From positions 74,144,767-74,208,766 of the forward strand of contig OY720346.1 in assembly GCA_963082975.1 (NCBI GenBank): 64,000 bases of DNA, written 5' to 3'. Positions 5,821-18,482 of this stretch are shown here, piece by piece (within the stretch, counting starts at the first letter, position 1; every line of letters starts with the position of its first letter). The translations under genes and the position numbers were made by a program. The DNA comes from Labia minor (taxonomy: Eukaryota > Arthropoda > Insecta > Dermaptera > Spongiphoridae). The notes below the pieces were generated by a model that had not been told where the DNA came from, did not search any database, and saw nothing but the letters and a program-made list of their open reading frames with translations.

Positions 5821-7895
5821 ATGAGCACTTTCAGAAGAAACTTAAACCCCCTTGCATGGTGTGCCCGTATTTTTGGTGTATTCCCATTGAATTTAAAATA
5901 TCAATATCGTTTAAAGAGTGTCTTCTTTATATGGAGTATAATTTTGGGAGTGGCGATCAATGTAAACCAATTTTTTCCACATTATTCAGACAAGTGGCAG
6001 TTATTTATCAATCCCCTCTATCGTTTTCGTACTTGTATTTTTTTTATTCTCTCTTTATCAACTTCGTATCATTTCCCAAATTTAATTGAACGATTTGAAA
6101 ATTTCGATATTGATTACCTATCGAGTTATCGATGTCCAGTTCATGTGCCATTTTACACTCGTGGTTACTTCTGGTCCATTATCAATCTCCTTTTTACTTG
6201 CATCCATTTAGTTTTGTTACTCTTTGAAAGTTCCCGGGACATTTTTGATAATTGTATTGCCTATTTTTCTTACAATTTCCGTCAAATCTACACGCATCTT
6301 TATCTTTTTTATTGTATTCATTTAATTTCACGTTTTCGTGATTTGGCCATTCAATGGAATTCATTAACCAAACAAAGTGAGAAAGAAATCGATATTTGTC
6401 GTCTTCATTATATTTATTTATCCAAATTGGTACATTTATTATCAGAATCATTTGGTCCGTTTCTTTGTATGTTCTATTTCACTAATTTATTGGAGTTGTT
6501 AACCAATTTGTATGATTTTGTTTATATTCAAAGTACTAGCAACTATAAAGGACCAGCACTTATACTTTTCAAATTAATATCGGTTTATTTTGTATCTGCA
6601 ATCAGTGGACAAGTCACTATCGAGGTAAGAATTTTACTAATTATGGAATGGAAAAAATTAATAAATGAAATCGATGAATGAGAAAATCAAATAATAAATA
6701 TATACAAATTTTAATCAAATTAATTGAAATATTGATTAATATATATATATATCAGTGGCTATAAGGAACTCGAAAGTTCTTGGCCGCAACAATCACACTT
6801 CTCCAAATATCCCTATCCTGTGCCACCAACATCCAATTCCTACCTTCTCCCATCTCTCCCACGTTTCTTCTTACATTGTCCACCCACCGCGTCCTTGGTC
6901 TTCCAAGAGGATGTTTCTCAATCGGTTTCCCCACCAATATTTTTCGCCATTCTTTCCTCTCCCATTCTAATGAGTCTTGCCCATTGTAGCCTTCTCAATT
7001 TTATACCCCTAACTGTCTTGAGGTGCATAGAGGTTATGCAATTCCTAGTTATGCAGTCTCCGCCATTGCCCGGTGACCTCATCTTTCTTTTGCCCATCAA
7101 TGTCGCGAAGAATATTCTTAAATACTCTAAATCTACTCTTCCACGTCTCCTATATAGGATCATAGACTATGCCTCACAACCATTTTTTTCTTTTTGGTTT
7201 TATTTAAAAATTTAGTTAATTTAATGAAAGATCTTTTATGCTGTTGCTTTTTGCTGTTTAAATATTGCATTTAAATATTTTTAAATTTTATAATAATTAA
7301 GTAGATGAAAAAGTAAGATTAATACAAATTCAACATTCATAAATTTAATTAATTACATCAACGAATGATGATATAACCCTAACTAGATCTGGAGATGCAT
7401 AGAGGTCATGCAATTCCTCGTTATGCAGTCTCCCCCATACCTTTGGTCCATAAATGCTGCAAAGAATCCTATTCTCAAATACTCTTAATCTACTCTCGTT
7501 CTCCAGAATCATTGACCATGCCTCACATCCGTATATAACAGCCGGAAAAATATAATTGTTTTTATATATATATTATTTTTTTAGGGTTTAAAAATTATTA
7601 ATGAAATTCAATCTTTTTCACTTTTACGAACAAGTTTCTCCACTCAACAACAATTACAAATGACCACATTACAACTACTCTCTTATCCACTTCAAATATC
7701 CGCTAATCATTATTTTACCATCAAAAAGAACACCTTTATATCGGTAACAAATAAATAAATAAAAATATTTATTTAATAAATTATTATATTAATTTTTTTT
7801 TTTCTTTTCAGTTTATCTTCTCAATCACAACATATTTTATTGTGTTAATGCAATTTCAAACCCAATTATCTGAATATAATTTACAATTTAAATGA
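5821..7895 (+). CDS. GR1: gustatory receptor family 7TM chemoreceptor (3 exons)
   Basis: Exons 5821-6624, 7585-7743 and 7812-7895 give 348 residues. Both introns are phase 0: donor GAG|gtaaga with acceptor ttag|GGT, then donor TCG|gtaaca with acceptor ttcag|TTT. Exon 1 encodes an N-terminal motif (RIFGVFPLN, about residues 16-24), several hydrophobic membrane spans, and the family's conserved LSESFGPFL segment (about residues 211-219) before transmembrane segment 6. The last exon encodes TTYFIVLMQF, the TYxxxxxQF signature of transmembrane segment 7. Gustatory receptors are ligand-gated channels of chemosensory neurons; the ligand is not predictable here. The ATG at 5821 is the first in frame after a TGA at 5767. 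A different frame just upstream also looks receptor-like across a run of five C at 5847-5851, so a longer N terminus is possible. The stop lies 4 nt before GR2. Confidence 0.85.
6752..7178 (-). mobile_element. Non-LTR retrotransposon fragment (reverse transcriptase C-terminal region) in GR1 intron 1
   Basis: The minus strand, with frame changes, encodes the tail of an endonuclease-reverse transcriptase polyprotein. Visible are a WARLIRMGEERM segment, then HPLGRPRTRWVDNV and a closing AQDRDIWRSVI, a pattern typical of these proteins. It is truncated at both ends and frameshifted, hence dead. It lies antisense to the receptor gene, inside its first intron. Confidence 0.75.
7384..7550 (-). mobile_element. 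Second non-LTR retrotransposon fragment in GR1 intron 1
   Basis: The minus strand reads VIYGCEAWSMILENESRLRV and then FENRILCSIYGP, the segment that precedes the region seen in the 6752-7178 fragment in this type of reverse transcriptase polyprotein. Part of the nucleotide sequence (ATGCATAGAGGT, ATGCAATTCCT) is repeated in the first fragment, so these are two independently truncated pieces of one family. It ends about 35 bases before GR1 exon 2. Confidence 0.7.
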
Positions 7896-7899
7896 CAAT

Positions 7900-10149
7900 A
7901 TGCATCTTTTTTATAAGAATATGCAACCATTTGTTTGGGCATTGAGAATATTTGGTGTTCATCCATTAACAAAATCACTTACTTATAGTATCATCTCCAT
8001 TTCATGGTTTTATTCTTTAATTTATTTTATTTTTTTAATCTTTTTTCAAGCATTCTATGATTATAAACAATGGTGGAAAAATCAATTTAAAATTTATTTC
8101 GTTTTCAGAATTTTAAGTGTATTTTTAACAACGTTTATTGGTGATCGTAAATTACCAGAATTTATTCAATCCTTTCAAAATTTTGATAATATCTATTTTA
8201 ATAAATTTGGAATTCAATTTATCTATCAGTGGTATCATCGTGGCGCTTTCTGGATGTTGATGATGATTGTAGTTTTTCTCGTAGAATTTTTAGGTAAATT
8301 TTTTACATCCATTGATCGAATCTCTTTTATAAGTTGTTCCATGAAAGCGTTTATTAAATCCACTACGACTAGTATAATTATTCAATATTATTTCTATTGT
8401 ATTCATTTGCATACACGAATTCGAATGATTCGTTTTCAATTAAAACATGAATTATTATCACCATCACCACGTGGAATTTATTTAGAATATTTGAGATTAT
8501 TGCATTTAGAAATATGCGAGCAAATTAATCGAATGAATGAATGTTTCGGTTTGAGAATTCTTGTCTATCTACTCATAACGATCATCTCCGCACTCTTTGA
8601 TTTGTTTCAATATATATTTATTTCACGCTGGGAATCGTACGGTCATTTATTATTTAATATCAATGCATTTATATTAATATATATACTTGGTACGTTGACA
8701 AGTCAAGTAACCGATGAGGTAAGTCATTTTAGAGAATTTTTCATTTTTTTTAAATAAAATAAAAATACTTATTATGGTAATTGTGTTTGCAAAACGGGAA
8801 GCTTGAGGAATTTGAATGAAACTTTGCCAGTGGATTCCTTTTTTAATTCCATAGAAACTTTCCTTATGCAATATTTCTCGGACGCTTCTTAGTTTACGAG
8901 ATAAAAATTATTAAAATTTGCATAAAAACCCATTCAGCTACCATGTTTTATTCACTTGGTCAGCAGAGGACTCCACTAATTTTCAGGGGGGGGGGGGGTT
9001 CAGTTCGGATTGAATATACAAAAATTAAAAAAATAATTATTAAATAAATTCCCTTACTATTAATTTTAATATATTATTACATTTGATTTTCAATTACAAT
9101 ATTATATATAATATAGGTTTACGAGGTGTGTCTAAAAAGTTCGGTGAATAAAAAAAACATTAAAAAGCGAATGTTAATTGTAAATACCTTTATTAACCTT
9201 CACAATACTCTCTACTTGCCACAAGGCACTTCTCATAACTCTCCACTAGCCACAACCCACTTCTGACAACGTTCGTATAACGCTTGAAAACTGTTGGAGA
9301 AGTCATGAAGTGGAATCGTTCTCGGAGTAGCCGTCACAACGTTCAGGCCGGCAATCCACAAGCAGGACATCAGAAAACACTACTTACTGTGTCTTTGCTA
9401 ATACCCAATTAGAGTCAATCGCCGATCTTTTGTTAGCATCTCTCGTACATGTTCAGTGTTTTCTGGTGTCCTGCTTGTGGATTGCCGGCCTGAACGTTGT
9501 GACGACTACTCTGAGAACGATACCACATCATGACTTCTCCAACAGTTTTCAAGTGTTATACGAACGTTATGAGAAGTGCGTTGTGGCAAAAAAAGTATTG
9601 TGAAGGTTAATAAAGGTATTTACAATTAACATTCTCTTTTTAATGTTTTTATCATACCATTCACCGAACTTTTTAGACAAACCTCGTATAATAATAACGA
9701 AAGTATTAATATAATTAATTAATATTAATGTTTATTTGTAGTAAAATGTAATTTTATTAATTGTAAATAAATGAAGAAATATAATAAAAACCTGTATATA
9801 TTTTTAGGCTGAACAAATAATAATCGATGCATGTAAAATACAAATGTTGAAACATGATGCATCCTGTCATTTGCCAATTTACATGTTAATACAACAACAG
9901 AAAGCCATTCGGCCACATTTTACAGCGTTTGGATTCTTAAAATTAAATAAACATTCTATACTATCCGTAAATAAGATAAGAATAAAATAAAAATCAATAC
10001 TAACTTTATTATTTATTGTTTTATTCCAATTAATTCAATTCTAATTAATATCTAAAATAAATTTTCAGGTGGGAGTGTCAATACTAACATACTTCATAAT
10101 AATTATTGAATTTTCTAAAAGTCTTTTAGAAATGATAATTCAACATTAA
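7900..10149 (+). CDS. GR2: gustatory receptor family 7TM chemoreceptor (3 exons)
   Basis: Exons 7900-8718, 9808-9966 and 10069-10149 give 352 residues. Both introns are phase 0: GAG|gtaagt with tttag|GCT, and TCC|gtaaat with ttcag|GTG. The N terminus has RIFGVHPL, matching GR1. MNECFGLRIL (about residues 208-217) is the conserved segment before transmembrane segment 6. Exon 2 ends GFLKLNKHSILS and exon 3 encodes ILTYFIIIIEF, a TYxxxxxQF-type signature with E in place of Q. The ATG lies 4 nt after the GR1 stop, in another frame, with no room for a separate 3' end or promoter between them. Intron 1 (1089 bp) holds half of a foldback element and a mariner-like foldback. The last exon was copied downstream, where it serves GR3. 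Confidence 0.85.
8776..9015 (+). repeat. Foldback family F half-copy in GR2 intron 1
   Basis: It begins GGTAATTGTGTTTGC then ACGGGAAGCTT, the same outer end as the copy at 61.7 kb, followed by the family core (AAACTTTGCCAGTGGATTCC, TTATGCAATATTT, TTTACGAGATAAAAATTATT). It stops near a run of G at about 8988 and the matching right arm is absent, so the element is truncated. Confidence 0.65.
9122..9686. mobile_element. Mariner-like foldback element in GR2 intron 1
   Basis: A 565-bp element flanked by TA on both sides (9120-9121 and 9687-9688). The ends are inverted: CGAGGTGTGTCTAAAAAGTT at the left and the complement at the right. The arms continue as near-complements for about 240 bases each (for example AATCCACAAGCAGGAC at the left against GTCCTGCTTGTGGATT at the right), so the transcript would fold into a long hairpin. 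The TA duplication and terminal sequence fit the Tc1/mariner superfamily. There is no transposase ORF. Part of the left arm is tandemly duplicated. Confidence 0.8.
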
Positions 10150-11476
10150 AAAAAAAGAAAAAAAAAAGAAAAGACATTTAAACAAATAATAATTTATTGA
10201 TTCAATATAAATTAATGAATAATGTACGTACAATAATTATTCAGTTGGCATTAAACCATCATGCGAATTAGTGGACTTACCAATGAAAAATTTATTTCGT
10301 TCTATAAGGAGTTTTTAATTAAAATGAAACCATTAATCATGTTTATAAAAATATTAGGAATATATCCTGTATCGAATGATAATCAATATAAAATTTTATC
10401 AATTTCATGGATGTGGTCTCTGCTCATTGGATTATTACAAATTATTTTGTTGACATTCGATTTAACAAGTTCATGGAAAATTTTTCTAACCAAATACAAC
10501 ATAATCCGAGTATCAATATATAATTTTACACTTTTAATTGAAGGACGAAAATTTGCTAAAATTATTGATCAATTTTGTTTATTTGATTCCATGTTTGCAA
10601 AAGTTTACTATCAAAAGATAAAAATTGGTTGGATCCAAAATCCGTGGACTTGGGTGATTTTAACTTGTATCGAAATGATATTTTACTATAATATCGTTTA
10701 TTTTTTTAACCGTTTCAGTATTTTTTCTGCACTAATTGATATGCTTAATTTCATTACTAGACAAAATACGATGCATTTATATATATTCTTTTGTTGGAAT
10801 ATTGTATCGCGAATTGAAAATTTAAAAGAGCAATGGAATCAGCAAATTGAATTGATATTGAAATCAAAAATGCATCATAATATTGGTTACACCAATGAAT
10901 ATTGTCTTGAGAAAACACGTCTCTTCTTTTTTCAATTGTGTGAAATTGTCGATTATATTAAAGAAGCATTTGGACTGATATTAATAACTACAATTCTCTC
11001 CATTTCTACTGATCTCCTATTGGATATATATGTATTTTTTTATTTAGAGGGTGGAAGACGAATTACACAATTTTTCTTTCCTGGATTAACTTTGGGAACA
11101 TTATACATTTTGTGTACAGTATGTGGGAAAATTTACACCAAGGCAAGAAAAAAAAATAAATATTTTTATAATTTCGCTTTGATGATTAAAAATTGATAAA
11201 TACTGCTAGATAGAATTATTATTAGAATAGAATAGAATTATTAATAGAATTATAATTACTATTATAGAATTTCAGCTTAATTTATCGCTGAAAGTACCCA
11301 AATTAATTTTTTTAACACGTTGATTGCCAATCACGCGCCAGCACGTGCCGTAGTATCATCAACAAAGAGCCAAACACGCGCTGGGTTAATAAATTTTATT
11401 TATCAATTTTAATTTAAAATTTATAGTTAATTAAATTTAATTAAAATATAATAAATATAAAATATTAATCCAAATC
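9976..11476. repeat. Tandem segmental duplication, unit 1
   Basis: The unit starts ATAAGAATAAAATAAAAATC inside GR2 intron 2. It contains the GR2 last exon, the spacer, GR3 exon 1 and the start of its intron 1. Unit 2 (11477 to about 12945) repeats all of this at high identity. The junction is abrupt at 11476/11477. Confidence 0.85.
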
Positions 11477-11654
11477 ATAAGAATAAAATAAAAATCAATA
11501 CTAACTAACTTTATTATTTATTGTTTTATTCCAATTAATTCAATTCTAATTAATATCTAAAATAAATTTTCAGGTGGGAGTGTCAATACTAACATACTTC
11601 ATAATAATTATTGAATTTTCTAAAAGTCTTTTAGAAATAATAATTCCACATTAA
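10261..11654 (+). CDS. GR3: chimeric gustatory receptor lacking the middle exon
   Basis: Exon 1 is 10261-11142 (294 residues). It ends at an AAG|gcaaga GC-type donor, phase 0, and includes ILGIYPVS near the N terminus and IKEAFGLILI, the conserved segment before transmembrane segment 6. The only family exon downstream before GR4 is 11574-11654 (ttcag|GTG, phase 0; ILTYFIIIIEF signature), a near-identical copy of the GR2 last exon. No 159-nt middle exon is visible in 11143-11573. Joining the two exons keeps the frame and gives about 320 residues without the roughly 53 residues between transmembrane segments 6 and 7. If unspliced, exon 1 reads on to a stop at 11194-11196. Either a functional short receptor or a recent pseudogene; no stop or frameshift is seen in either exon. 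Confidence 0.7.
11312..11389 (-). repeat. TTAA-bounded short repeat in GR3 intron
   Basis: About 70 bases between two TTAA sites. One side starts ACACGTTGATTGCCAA and the other ends ACACGCGCTGGG, a layout like piggyBac-type short elements. The duplicate sits at 12769-12846 in GR4, and a third, inverted copy sits at 23747-23829. Homology to the third copy extends about 60 bases beyond one TTAA (CAGCTT...GCTGAAAGTACC). Confidence 0.55.
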
Positions 11655-12945
11655 AAAAAGAATAGAAAAAACACATTTAAATAAATAATAATCTATTGAT
11701 TAAATATAAATTAATGAATAAATAAATGAATAATGTTCATACAATAATTATTCAGTTGGCATTAAACCATCATGCGAATTAGTGGACTTTATAGCAATGA
11801 AAAATATATTTCGTTCTATAAGCAGTTTTTAATTAAAATGAAACCATTAATCATGTTTATAAAAATATTAGGAATATATCCTGTATCGAATGATAATCAA
11901 TATAAAATTTTATCAATTTCATGGATGTGGTCTCTGTTCATTGGATTATTACAAATTATTTTGTTGGCATTCGATTTAACAAGTTCATGGAAAATTTTTC
12001 TAACCAAATACAACATAATCCGAGTATCAATACAAAATTTTACACTTTTAATTGAAGGACGAAAATTTACTAAAATTATTGATCAATTTTGTTTATTTGA
12101 TTCCATGTTTGCAAAAGTTTACTATCAAAAGATAAAAATTGGGTGGATACAAAATCCTTGGACTTGGGTGATTTTAAATTGCATCGAAATGCTAATTTAT
12201 TATAATATCGTTTATTTTTTTAACCGTTTCACTATTTTTTCTGCGCTAATTGATATGCTTAGTTTCTTTACTAGACAAAATACGATGCATTTATATATTT
12301 TCTTTTGTTGGAATATTGTATCGCGAATTGAACATTTAAAAGAGCAATGGGATCAGCAAATTGAAGTGATATTGAAATCAAAAATGCATCATAATATTGG
12401 TTACAACAATGAATATTGTCTTGAGAAAACACGTCTCTTCTTTTTTCAATTGTGTGAAATTGTCGATTGTATTAAAGAAGCATTTGGACTGATATTAATA
12501 ACTACAATCCTCTCCATTTCTACTGATTTCCTATTGGATATATATGTATTTTTTTATTTAGACGGTGGAAGACGAATAACACAATTTTTCTTTCCTGTAT
12601 TAACTTTGGGAACATTATACCTGTTGTGTACAGTATGTGGGAAAATTTACACCAAGGCAAGAAAAAAAAATAAATATTTTTATCATTTCGCTTTGATGAT
12701 TTAATACTGCTAAATATATTATAGAATTTCAGCTTAAAGTATCCGAATTATTTTTTTTTAATTTTTTTTTAACACATTGACTGCCAAACACGCGCCAGCA
12801 CGTGACATGGTATCATCAACAAAGAGCTAAACACGTGCTGGTTTAATATTATTATATTTATTAATTTTAATTTATAATTTATAATTAATTATATTTAATT
12901 TAAATATAATAATATATCTCTGTTATTTAATACAAATCAATTTTG
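11477..12945. repeat. Tandem segmental duplication, unit 2
   Basis: A copy of 9976-11476 with a 4-base insertion (ACTA) near its start and scattered substitutions. It carries the duplicated GR2 last exon (now 11574-11654), the short spacer, GR4 exon 1 and the TTAA-bounded repeat. The right edge is diffuse, in AT-rich sequence around 12936-12951. Confidence 0.8.
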
Positions 12946-13877
12946 CGAGATAGTCAAGTGGAGACACTTCAGATTTTTTTAATTTAATTAGGAATAATAG
13001 AATTTAAAAATAGTACACTAAAAAATGATGAAAAAATCTTAAGAAACTCTCATAAAGAAAATTGATCAAATTAATGCCAAAAAGATAATCATTCATCATC
13101 ATCATAAATAATTAGAAACATAAGAGTGGGAAACAATTTATTTAAGAAAGAATTATCAATTAAGTTATTGAATTTATTTAATTTAATTAAATATGTACAT
13201 CGATTTATATGATTATAAACGAGAAAAAAAGAAAAAAAATGAAATTGTTTATTTAATTAAATAAATAATAAGAAATAAATTATTCATATTTAGATTATTC
13301 TAGAGAACTTTTTGATACAATTATTATTAATATGATTATGATTATTATTATTATACTAGGCGAACCCGTTGCAAACGGAGTTTGCAATTTATATAAGTTC
13401 AAATTCGATTTGTAACTATCTTCATAATGTCGATATGACATCACATTCCTAACTTCATAATGTTACAGACATCACATAGATACGATGGAAATTATATATA
13501 TATATTGATAGAAAATATGTACATTTTTTTATTTTGATTTATTTTATTTTTTCAGAGTATGGAAATAGTATCGTCTATTCGTCGAGTTCCAATTATAACT
13601 CTGAATCCTGAAAGTCGTCTCCAATTGTATTTGTTTCAATCCCAGATTGTCGCAAATCCTCCATATTTAACTGTGTACGATTTTGCACCACTAAACAAAG
13701 GAACCATCCTTGCTGTACGAACCTTTATCATATCATCTATAAATAATCGATTTAATTTAATTTACTCATTTATTTATTTCTTTGTAGGTTTTTATGTCCG
13801 TATCCACTTATTTTATTATTATAATGCAATTTCAGAAAGATATTGGACAATTAGTATACAATATCAGTGATAAATAA
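11772..13877 (+). CDS. GR4: gustatory receptor family 7TM chemoreceptor (3 exons)
   Basis: Exons 11772-12656, 13556-13714 and 13788-13877 give 377 residues. Both introns are phase 0: AAG|gcaaga (GC donor) with ttcag|AGT, and GCT|gtacga with tgtag|GTT. Exon 1 is about 93% identical to GR3 by eye and contains ILGIYPVS and IKEAFGLILI. Exon 2 ends in YDFAPLNKGTILA, matching the GFxxLNxxxxxS pattern of GR2. Exon 3 encodes STYFIIIMQFQ, a full TYxxxxxQF signature. This is the copy that kept the ancestral exons 2 and 3. The intergenic gap to the GR3 stop is 117 bp, so the array is compact. Intron 1 holds the TTAA-bounded repeat and a Helitron-like end. A degraded hAT-like terminus follows the stop directly. 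Confidence 0.85.
12769..12846 (-). repeat. TTAA-bounded short repeat in GR4 intron 1
   Basis: The duplicated partner of 11312-11389, with several substitutions (for example ACACATTGACTGCCAA). It was present before the 1.5-kb duplication. Confidence 0.55.
13355..13400 (-). mobile_element. Helitron-like 3' terminus in GR4 intron 1
   Basis: On the minus strand, CCGTTTGCAACGG can form a 5-bp stem with a 3-base loop. It is followed six bases later by CTAGT and then AT-rich sequence, as at Helitron 3' ends. The element would extend rightwards on the + strand; its 5' end is not identified. The call rests on one short hairpin plus CTAGT. Confidence 0.35.
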
Positions 13878-17545: not shown

Positions 17546-18068
17546 TATATATTTAATTTTAAGATATTTTAAACGTAAAAATGCATAATCGAATTTTCCA
17601 TTGAAAAACACTGCATTGAAGTAACCTGTAGTTATTCATATAAAAAAATAATAAATTCTTTTTGTATTTATATCCTACTTCTTTAAAATATAATAAATAG
17701 ATAATAAATCTTAGAAAATTAATAAAAAATGAATTCTTAAATTATATTATTATATTAAGAGAATAAAATATATTAGATACTTTAGGTTTAATTTATTAGA
17801 AAGGATATAATTATATATATATATATATATCATTCTCTTTTTAGTAAAACAACTATCCAATAATTAATTAATATATATATAAAGTTATATTTTACAAATT
17901 CCAAGGCAGGTTAGTGAAAAAAAAGACCAATTTTGATTCGTTAATAAGAAAACAAAAACAAACTCCTTTGATGAAAAACAAACGTGAAAGCAAATAAACA
18001 AAAAGTGCAATTATTAGAATAAAATTTGAAGCAAATAAGGTTGCCGAGAATAGGAAGAGATCACTTGC

Positions 18069-18482
18069 CTGTCGCACCTGTTTAAACTGCTCCTCGAAAC
18101 TCCAAGTTTGTTGCGAACTAGAACTGCTCTCCGATGAATGGGAAGATGCAGACGAAAAGGCGTTGTTGTTGTTGTTATTATTATTAGTGTTGTTGTTATT
18201 GGAGTGGGCAACGGGTGCAGGAGTTCCTGACGAAGGAGTTGAATGAGTAATGGAATTCGAAATTGGTGGAAGAAATGCCGCGGTACCGGGATGTGAAAAT
18301 GGAAAGGGTGGTGGTAGTGAGAAAGAGAGCGGGGGGATGAGATTTCCAGCTGCAGCAGCGTTTACAGCCGCGGCCGCTGCCGCTGCAGCAGCTAACGCGG
18401 AAGAGACATTGGTGCCATTCCCAAGACTATTAGGTGGTCCAGAACCAACTACAGGGCCTTTGAGAGGACCCTCATCGCCAGT
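18069..18482 (-). CDS. dri: dead ringer/retained (ARID3-type) transcription factor, exon with start of ARID domain
   Basis: This is a minus-strand exon, phase 0 at both ends: acceptor ttttag|ACT at 18483 and a donor after 18069 (CAG|gcaagt) or 18078 (CAG|gtgcga). It encodes about 138 residues: TGDEGPLKGPV, a nine-residue Ala tract, a Pro/Phe-rich part, an eight-residue Asn tract, a Ser-rich part, then TWSFEEQFKQVRQ. That last motif is the conserved beginning of the ARID DNA-binding domain of Dead ringer/ARID3 proteins, which act as nuclear sequence-specific regulators in development. The rest of the ARID (starting LYE in the family) must be on a downstream exon; none is visible at 1-18068. 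The plus-strand frame at 18250-18486 is its shadow. Confidence 0.85.

Follow-up and report, generated by a model that had tools for sequence, protein, structure and literature searches.

In the dermapteran Labia minor, does a gustatory-receptor first exon that lies directly ahead of a copied last exon from a neighbouring gene encode a new chimeric receptor, as a first-pass annotation of the sequence had proposed, or does it serve another product? We addressed this question in a 64,000-nt stretch of DNA, here called the window (C4:74144767-74208766 of a searched genome of 604 Mb in 71 contigs).

The receptor row and its gene models

Four gustatory-receptor first exons stand in a tandem row between 5.8 and 12.7 kb of the window, on the + strand, like the exons, the duplicated unit and the repeat fragment described below. 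Three of them open complete three-exon genes: GR1 (5821-7895; 348 residues), with GT-AG exons at 5821-6624, 7585-7743 and 7812-7895; GR2 (7900-10149; 352 residues), with exons at 7900-8718, 9808-9966 and 10069-10149; and GR4 (377 residues), with exons at 11772-12656 (295 codons), 13556-13714 and 13788-13877. In each of these genes, exon 2 measures 159 nt and exon 3 measures 81-90 nt, all introns are phase 0, and the predicted proteins pass the 26.6-bit cut-off of Pfam 7tm_7 (PF08395) with 43.6, 60.6 and 50.7 bits, respectively. The remaining first exon, GR3 exon 1 (10261-11142; 882 nt, 294 codons), has an open frame and is followed, after a 431-nt stretch (11143-11573), by an 81-nt copy of the GR2 last exon (11574-11654) that is in phase with it and retains an intact acceptor. 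The first exons of GR3 and GR4 outnumber the C-terminal sets available to them, with one exon 2/3 set downstream in compatible phases. Exon 3 encodes S7b, including, after the phase-0 intron, the motif TYhhhhhQF, which reads TYFIVLMQF in GR1 and TYFIIIMQF in GR4; the GR2 last exon and its copy both read TYFIIIIEF, with E replacing Q.

Between the stop codon of GR1 and the start codon of GR2 lie 4 nt (window 7893-7900), a spacing that by itself suggests a run-on or two-gene transcript; a search of PMC2667405 turned up no mention of two-gene transcripts of Gr clusters. On such a run-on transcript, the copy at 11574 could serve GR2, whose exons 1 and 2 would sometimes be joined to it over GR3 exon 1, giving an isoform with two changed residues near its end. 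The acceptor and phase are the same as those of GR2 exon 3, and the GR1-GR2 spacing makes run-on transcription plausible; however, GR2 has its own last exon only 102 nt past its donor, and we regard this use of the copy as the least probable of the explanations considered here.

The surrounding DNA holds further features. GR2 intron 1 contains long inverted repeats (9092-9716), with arms of 133 nt (93% complementary), 62 nt (95%) and, outermost, 58 nt (76%); their arrangement resembles a mobile element with inverted termini. In GR1 intron 1, the - strand carries open frames at 6918-7163 and 7345-7512 whose letters resemble those in a frame of the receptor at C4:73.649 Mb. By eye, both frames resemble the terminal stretch of a LINE reverse transcriptase; Pfam returned no match for either. 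Further downstream, a 196-codon open frame on the - strand (17895-18482) is rich in Ala, Asn and Ser, has QTWSFEEQFKQ before a possible donor, and resembles the start of an ARID3/dead ringer domain; it drew nothing above the Pfam cut-off.

A tandem duplication with intronic breakpoints

Alignment of the two copies bears out the 1.5-kb tandem duplication described in the first-pass annotation. Copy A (9976-11476) comprises a remnant of GR2 intron 2, GR2 exon 3, an intergenic part, GR3 exon 1 and part of intron 1; copy B (11477-12945) is matched by BLAST to 12917 and alignable to about 12945, with positions 1-1483 of the 1501-nt unit matched at 89% identity. The unit extends from within GR2 intron 2 to within intron 1 of the receptor downstream, placing both breakpoints in introns, as had been claimed, and GR3 exon 1 is then followed by the second GR2 last exon. 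No other genomic place matching unit positions 1-1261 was recovered among the 40 of 2466 candidates scored in a whole-genome DNA search.

The copies have diverged unevenly. They show 0/93 differences and one 4-nt indel in the GR2 intron-2 remnant, 2/81 in exon 3 (both residue-altering), 10/105 in the intergenic part, 33/882 (3.7%) plus one 3-nt in-frame indel in exon 1, and 48/277 plus five gap events in the intron-1 part, where the DNA is AT-rich and the alignment uncertain. An assembly duplication error, raised beforehand as a possible objection, is unlikely given this divergence in exon 1 and the larger divergence, with indels, of the non-coding parts.

Within this pattern, the start of the unit stands out: 9976-10133 and 11477-11638 differ by no mismatch and only the 4-nt indel, whereas the adjoining intergenic part differs by 9.5%. 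The intron-2 remnant and exon 3 together (2/174) depart significantly from the intergenic part (10/105; p 0.0013) but not from exon 1 (p 0.10). Such identity around the copied last exon could be counted in favour of a functional chimera; yet it spans the intron as well as the exon, and both changes in exon 3 alter residues. Because the intron is covered too, the near-identity is no sign of coding constraint on the copied exon; the plain reading is possibly a gene conversion tract, and promoter constraint inside 9976-10133 may be another. Coding selection on the exon-3 copy, also considered, is inseparable from gene conversion, the adjacent intron being equally conserved.

At its other end, the unit carries a fragment of a dispersed repeat. 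Its last ~240 nt (11237-11476) match at least 39 other places, the 43 listed matches being made up of the two unit copies, one elsewhere in the window, one of only 52 nt and 39 others. In copy B the repeat extends beyond the breakpoint to about 12979; therefore, the duplication junction cut the repeat. At the second breakpoint, the GR2 intron-2 part (query positions 1-93) drew no repeat matches among the 40 of 2466 candidates scored. Unequal crossing-over between two repeat copies is unsupported, with the repeat at one breakpoint only; by eye, the junction has 0-1 nt of common sequence. Over 226 aligned columns, derived letters are common to both repeat copies at 7 positions, confined to A at 21 and to B at 29, and different in the two at 3; the shared letters point weakly to an insertion that is probably older than the duplication. 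The fragments at 11226-11480 and 12701-12990 are 76% identical despite the 3.7% divergence of the exons in this duplication, below the identity of either to most other copies; this low value may reflect poor alignment of the AT-rich ends.

Two endings available to GR3 exon 1

Joined to the copy at 11574-11654 across a 431-nt intron, GR3 exon 1 gives an open, phase-0 reading frame of 320 aa. The annotated features of this join, namely phase 0 at every junction, two stop-free exons and a product of about 320 residues, were all confirmed. The alternative ending, GR3 exon 1 with GR4 exons 2 and 3, requires a 2,413-nt intron, is equally phase-compatible and gives 376 residues. This intron falls within the 0.9-4.7 kb spread of intron 1 in seven other members, the ends of four being match ends. 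The two products differ sharply in domain recognition: the longer one matches Pfam 7tm_7 at 45.5 bits (cut-off 26.6), whereas the chimera matched no Pfam family at E up to 0.1 or, again, at E up to 10. GR3 exon 1 alone and GR4 exon 1 alone likewise matched no family at E up to 10; because GR4 exon 1 alone fails too, the contrast weighs the missing exon 2 and is silent on GR3 exon 1 itself.

No exon 2 turned up between GR3 exon 1 and the copied last exon. An HMM derived from the second exons of GR1, GR2 and GR4 was applied with --max, accepting E up to 5, to every stop-to-stop frame at least 15 aa long and detected no family exon 2 in 11143-11573, the interval in which a 159-nt exon would have spoken against the annotated chimera. 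We applied the exon HMMs to the window's first 20 kb and to the relatives recovered by a search with the GR2 protein (three genes at C4:73.638-73.660 Mb, a fourth at C2:15.93 Mb); that search and the one with the unit DNA may have missed members closer to GR3 than to GR2. In this sample, an exon 2 of their own lies downstream of 7/8 first exons of the subfamily, the exception being GR3; the exon 2 and 3 profiles derive from GR1, GR2 and GR4, so the matches of those three genes hold by construction. The exon-3 HMM did not find exon 3 of the gene at C2:15.93 Mb. At C4:73647794, ahead of the first exon at 73649232, a partial match to the exon-2 HMM (its positions 11-28; E 0.0019) is perhaps a fossil exon.

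The content of the missing segment can be approximated from solved structures. A profile of six members without GR3 matched Gr43a (8jm9, E 2.3e-10), chains named Gustatory receptor (8zdz, 7.6e-9; 8vc1, 0.0029) and odorant receptors (5.6e-7), and the two Gr43a alignments shown span exon 2 without gaps; phmmer with GR4 alone gave only a chance match (E 1.4) against solved structures. In BmGr9, according to the part of the structural report available (PMC11100771), S6 covers residues 345-389, S7a 395-409 and S7b 424-444, with the motif at 436-444, and an anchor domain formed by S2, S4, S5, S6 and S7a accounts, in each subunit, for 1,235 of the roughly 2,200 square angstroms of buried contact. Counting back from TYhhhhhQF on that numbering, exon 2 corresponds approximately to BmGr9 377-429. 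The 53 residues are absent from the chimera, as annotated. They had been described as lying between transmembrane segments 6 and 7, but on the BmGr9 numbering they are more than a simple loop and take in the inner end of S6, the whole of S7a and the opening turns of S7b. By analogy with BmGr9 as thus described, a receptor lacking exon 2 would keep the pore helix and lose part of the anchor that assembles the tetramer.

Sequence signals around the splice sites were compared for both endings. Exon 1 closes with AAG|gcaaga, a GC donor, in GR3 as in GR4, whereas the first exons of GR1 and GR2 have GT donors and the first-exon ends of four relatives read E|V, as expected from a GT donor; from GC in both copies and GT-like ends in the others, the change to GC probably predates the duplication. 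The accessible part of PMC2490688 states that, in human, nematode and Arabidopsis, genes with alternative splicing show an enrichment of GC donors. The acceptor at 11574, the same as that of GR2 exon 3, marks the nearest family exon downstream of GR3 exon 1 and has 10/20 pyrimidines, as do both GR2 acceptors, against 16/20 at 13556. Neither donor type nor acceptor pyrimidines decide between the two endings. In copy B, AATAAA occurs at 11680, 11717 and 11721, and copy A has none past GR2 exon 3 before 10900, which might favour termination after the copied exon; however, AATAAA is no guide at this locus because it is common at 25% G+C and the 523 nt that follow the stop codon of GR4 contain neither AATAAA nor ATTAAA. 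Motifs for poly(A) addition and initiators were set aside as uninformative at this base composition.

Taken at its strongest, the chimeric reading holds that GR3 exon 1 is spliced mainly from 11142 to 11574 and yields a stable receptor. The open, in-phase exons, the intact acceptor and its proximity all allow this. However, the product would be without S7a, and it is the loss of this anchor segment, the missing Pfam match and the competing shared-exon architecture that keep the chimera from being the best reading; we consider it unlikely as the main product. The claim that the duplication created a chimeric receptor therefore stands as an in-frame possibility and as one splicing outcome only. 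The duplication itself is real, and the chimera, where it is formed, is most likely a by-product.

If the chimera is not the product, GR3 exon 1 could be a decaying duplicate: splicing to the copied exon would give a dead protein, and the frame would be open through youth or conversion by GR4. GR3 lacks second and third exons of its own, and the comparison of GR3 and GR4 rates suggested in the first-pass annotation gave, for exon 1, dS 0.057 and dN 0.034, a ratio of 0.59 that lies below 1 but does not differ from it significantly (p 0.25) and also fits relaxation in one copy. In simulations of neutral decay on the GR3 branch, the frame survived with probabilities of 0.001-0.143 over nine settings, and of 0.015-0.071 at the dS branch length. 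The mildest settings are compatible with chance survival, and conversion from GR4 could mimic constraint, keeping GR3 open without use; yet eight of the nine settings fall below 0.08, and 882 nt have been retained without a stop or frameshift. Exon 1 has also diverged less than the intergenic part (33/882 against 10/105, p 0.018) and than the non-coding parts together (58/382, p 8e-12, with uncertain alignment in the latter). At the 22 residues that differ between GR3 and GR4, GR3 is the better fit to six distant relatives at 13 and GR4 at 6, the remaining 3 being tied, so that GR3 fares no worse than its sister. We regard decay as possible but rather improbable; GR3 exon 1 is probably in use, and use with shared C-terminal exons explains it best.

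Proposed sharing of C-terminal exons and its parallels

We therefore favour, with a probability of about 0.5, the reading that exon 1 of GR3 and that of GR4 serve a single receptor locus as alternative first exons sharing 13556-13714 and 13788-13877, with the copied GR2 exon as a passenger. The arrangement, open frames, phases and splice dinucleotides are read directly from the DNA, and the following course would fit them. Tandem duplication would have produced the two alternative first exons, each with its own promoter and transcript start, and carried 11574-11654 along. Both first exons would be joined to GR4 exons 2 and 3, giving receptors of 376 and 377 residues that differ in their N-terminal ligand-binding parts and have S7 in common. 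GR3 splicing would have to jump both the copied exon and GR4 exon 1, and where skipping fails, the truncated chimera would appear as a by-product.

This shared-exon reading is supported because the product of GR3 exon 1 and GR4 exons 2-3 is recognised as 7tm_7 and the chimera is not, because the required intron lies in the family range and GR3 keeps an open frame with residues no more degraded than those of GR4, and because another locus of this genome has such a layout and precedents have been proposed in print. The pyrimidine-richer acceptor at 13556 adds weak support. Against it, the acceptor at 11574 is intact and lies nearer, and it would be expected to capture at least a share of GR3 transcripts. 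Nor is sharing the rule here: all seven other first exons of the subfamily have their own exon 2, and in an array at C9:54.63-54.75 Mb (54630001-54750000), where second exons only were examined, 18/18 first exons have one. Both endings might even be used, as a splice switch by which GR3 exon 1 yields either a complete receptor through the shared exons or a subunit lacking S7a, with ligand-binding part and pore helix. We consider such a switch very improbable; if it were true, truncated subunits could join tetramers and thereby silence or retune the receptors in the neuron that makes them, and the duplication would have created a receptor together with its own modulator.

The parallel within the genome lies at C1:17.09-17.10 Mb. 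In the 10 kb read there (17090501-17100500), two open first exons with gt donors, 95.9% identical over 1893 bp, precede a single exon 2/3 pair; their pN/pS is 0.68 (7/190.3 and 18/721.7). A further first exon lies about 11 kb upstream, outside the 10 kb read, and the exon 3 peptide also has two weak matches within first exons (E 0.002-0.003, 18 residues). In layout, a near-identical first-exon pair before one C-terminal pair, this locus resembles GR3-GR4; unlike it, it has no credible last exon found between its first exons, belongs to another Gr subfamily and uses GT donors.

As far as the available parts of the relevant papers go, neither chimeric genes formed by tandem duplication nor Gr loci with shared exons are new in kind. 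In Gr39a of Drosophila pseudoobscura, an alternative N-terminal exon is duplicated in tandem and three C-terminal exons are shared, with splicing hypothesised (PMC3011837), and DponGr38a-d of Dendroctonus combine a unique N-terminal exon with two shared C-terminal exons, which the authors regard as alternative splicing (PMC6720082). As excerpted, both resemble GR3-GR4 in having tandem long first exons before one C-terminal exon set, and in D. pseudoobscura Gr39a one first exon is itself a tandem duplicate (PMC3011837). GR3-GR4 differ in that the two first exons are separated by the last exon of a neighbour, its acceptor intact, allowing a truncated ending to compete, and in having GC donors on both first exons, and they are known here from DNA alone. 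In Drosophila yakuba, chimeric genes arise from tandem duplication (Rogers et al. 2017, PMC5460883), and, in the portion consulted, a partial duplication likewise unites parts of two neighbouring genes (PMC5460883); in GR3, by contrast with those chimeras as described there, the join lies within introns, and the predicted product would be set by splice choice. The titles and abstract openings that we found do not describe the GR3 arrangement, and we do not claim its absence from print.

The locus illustrates cleanly how Gr loci with shared C-terminal exons could come about or expand: by one partial tandem duplication with intronic breakpoints, a first exon would be gained and a competing last exon brought along with it.
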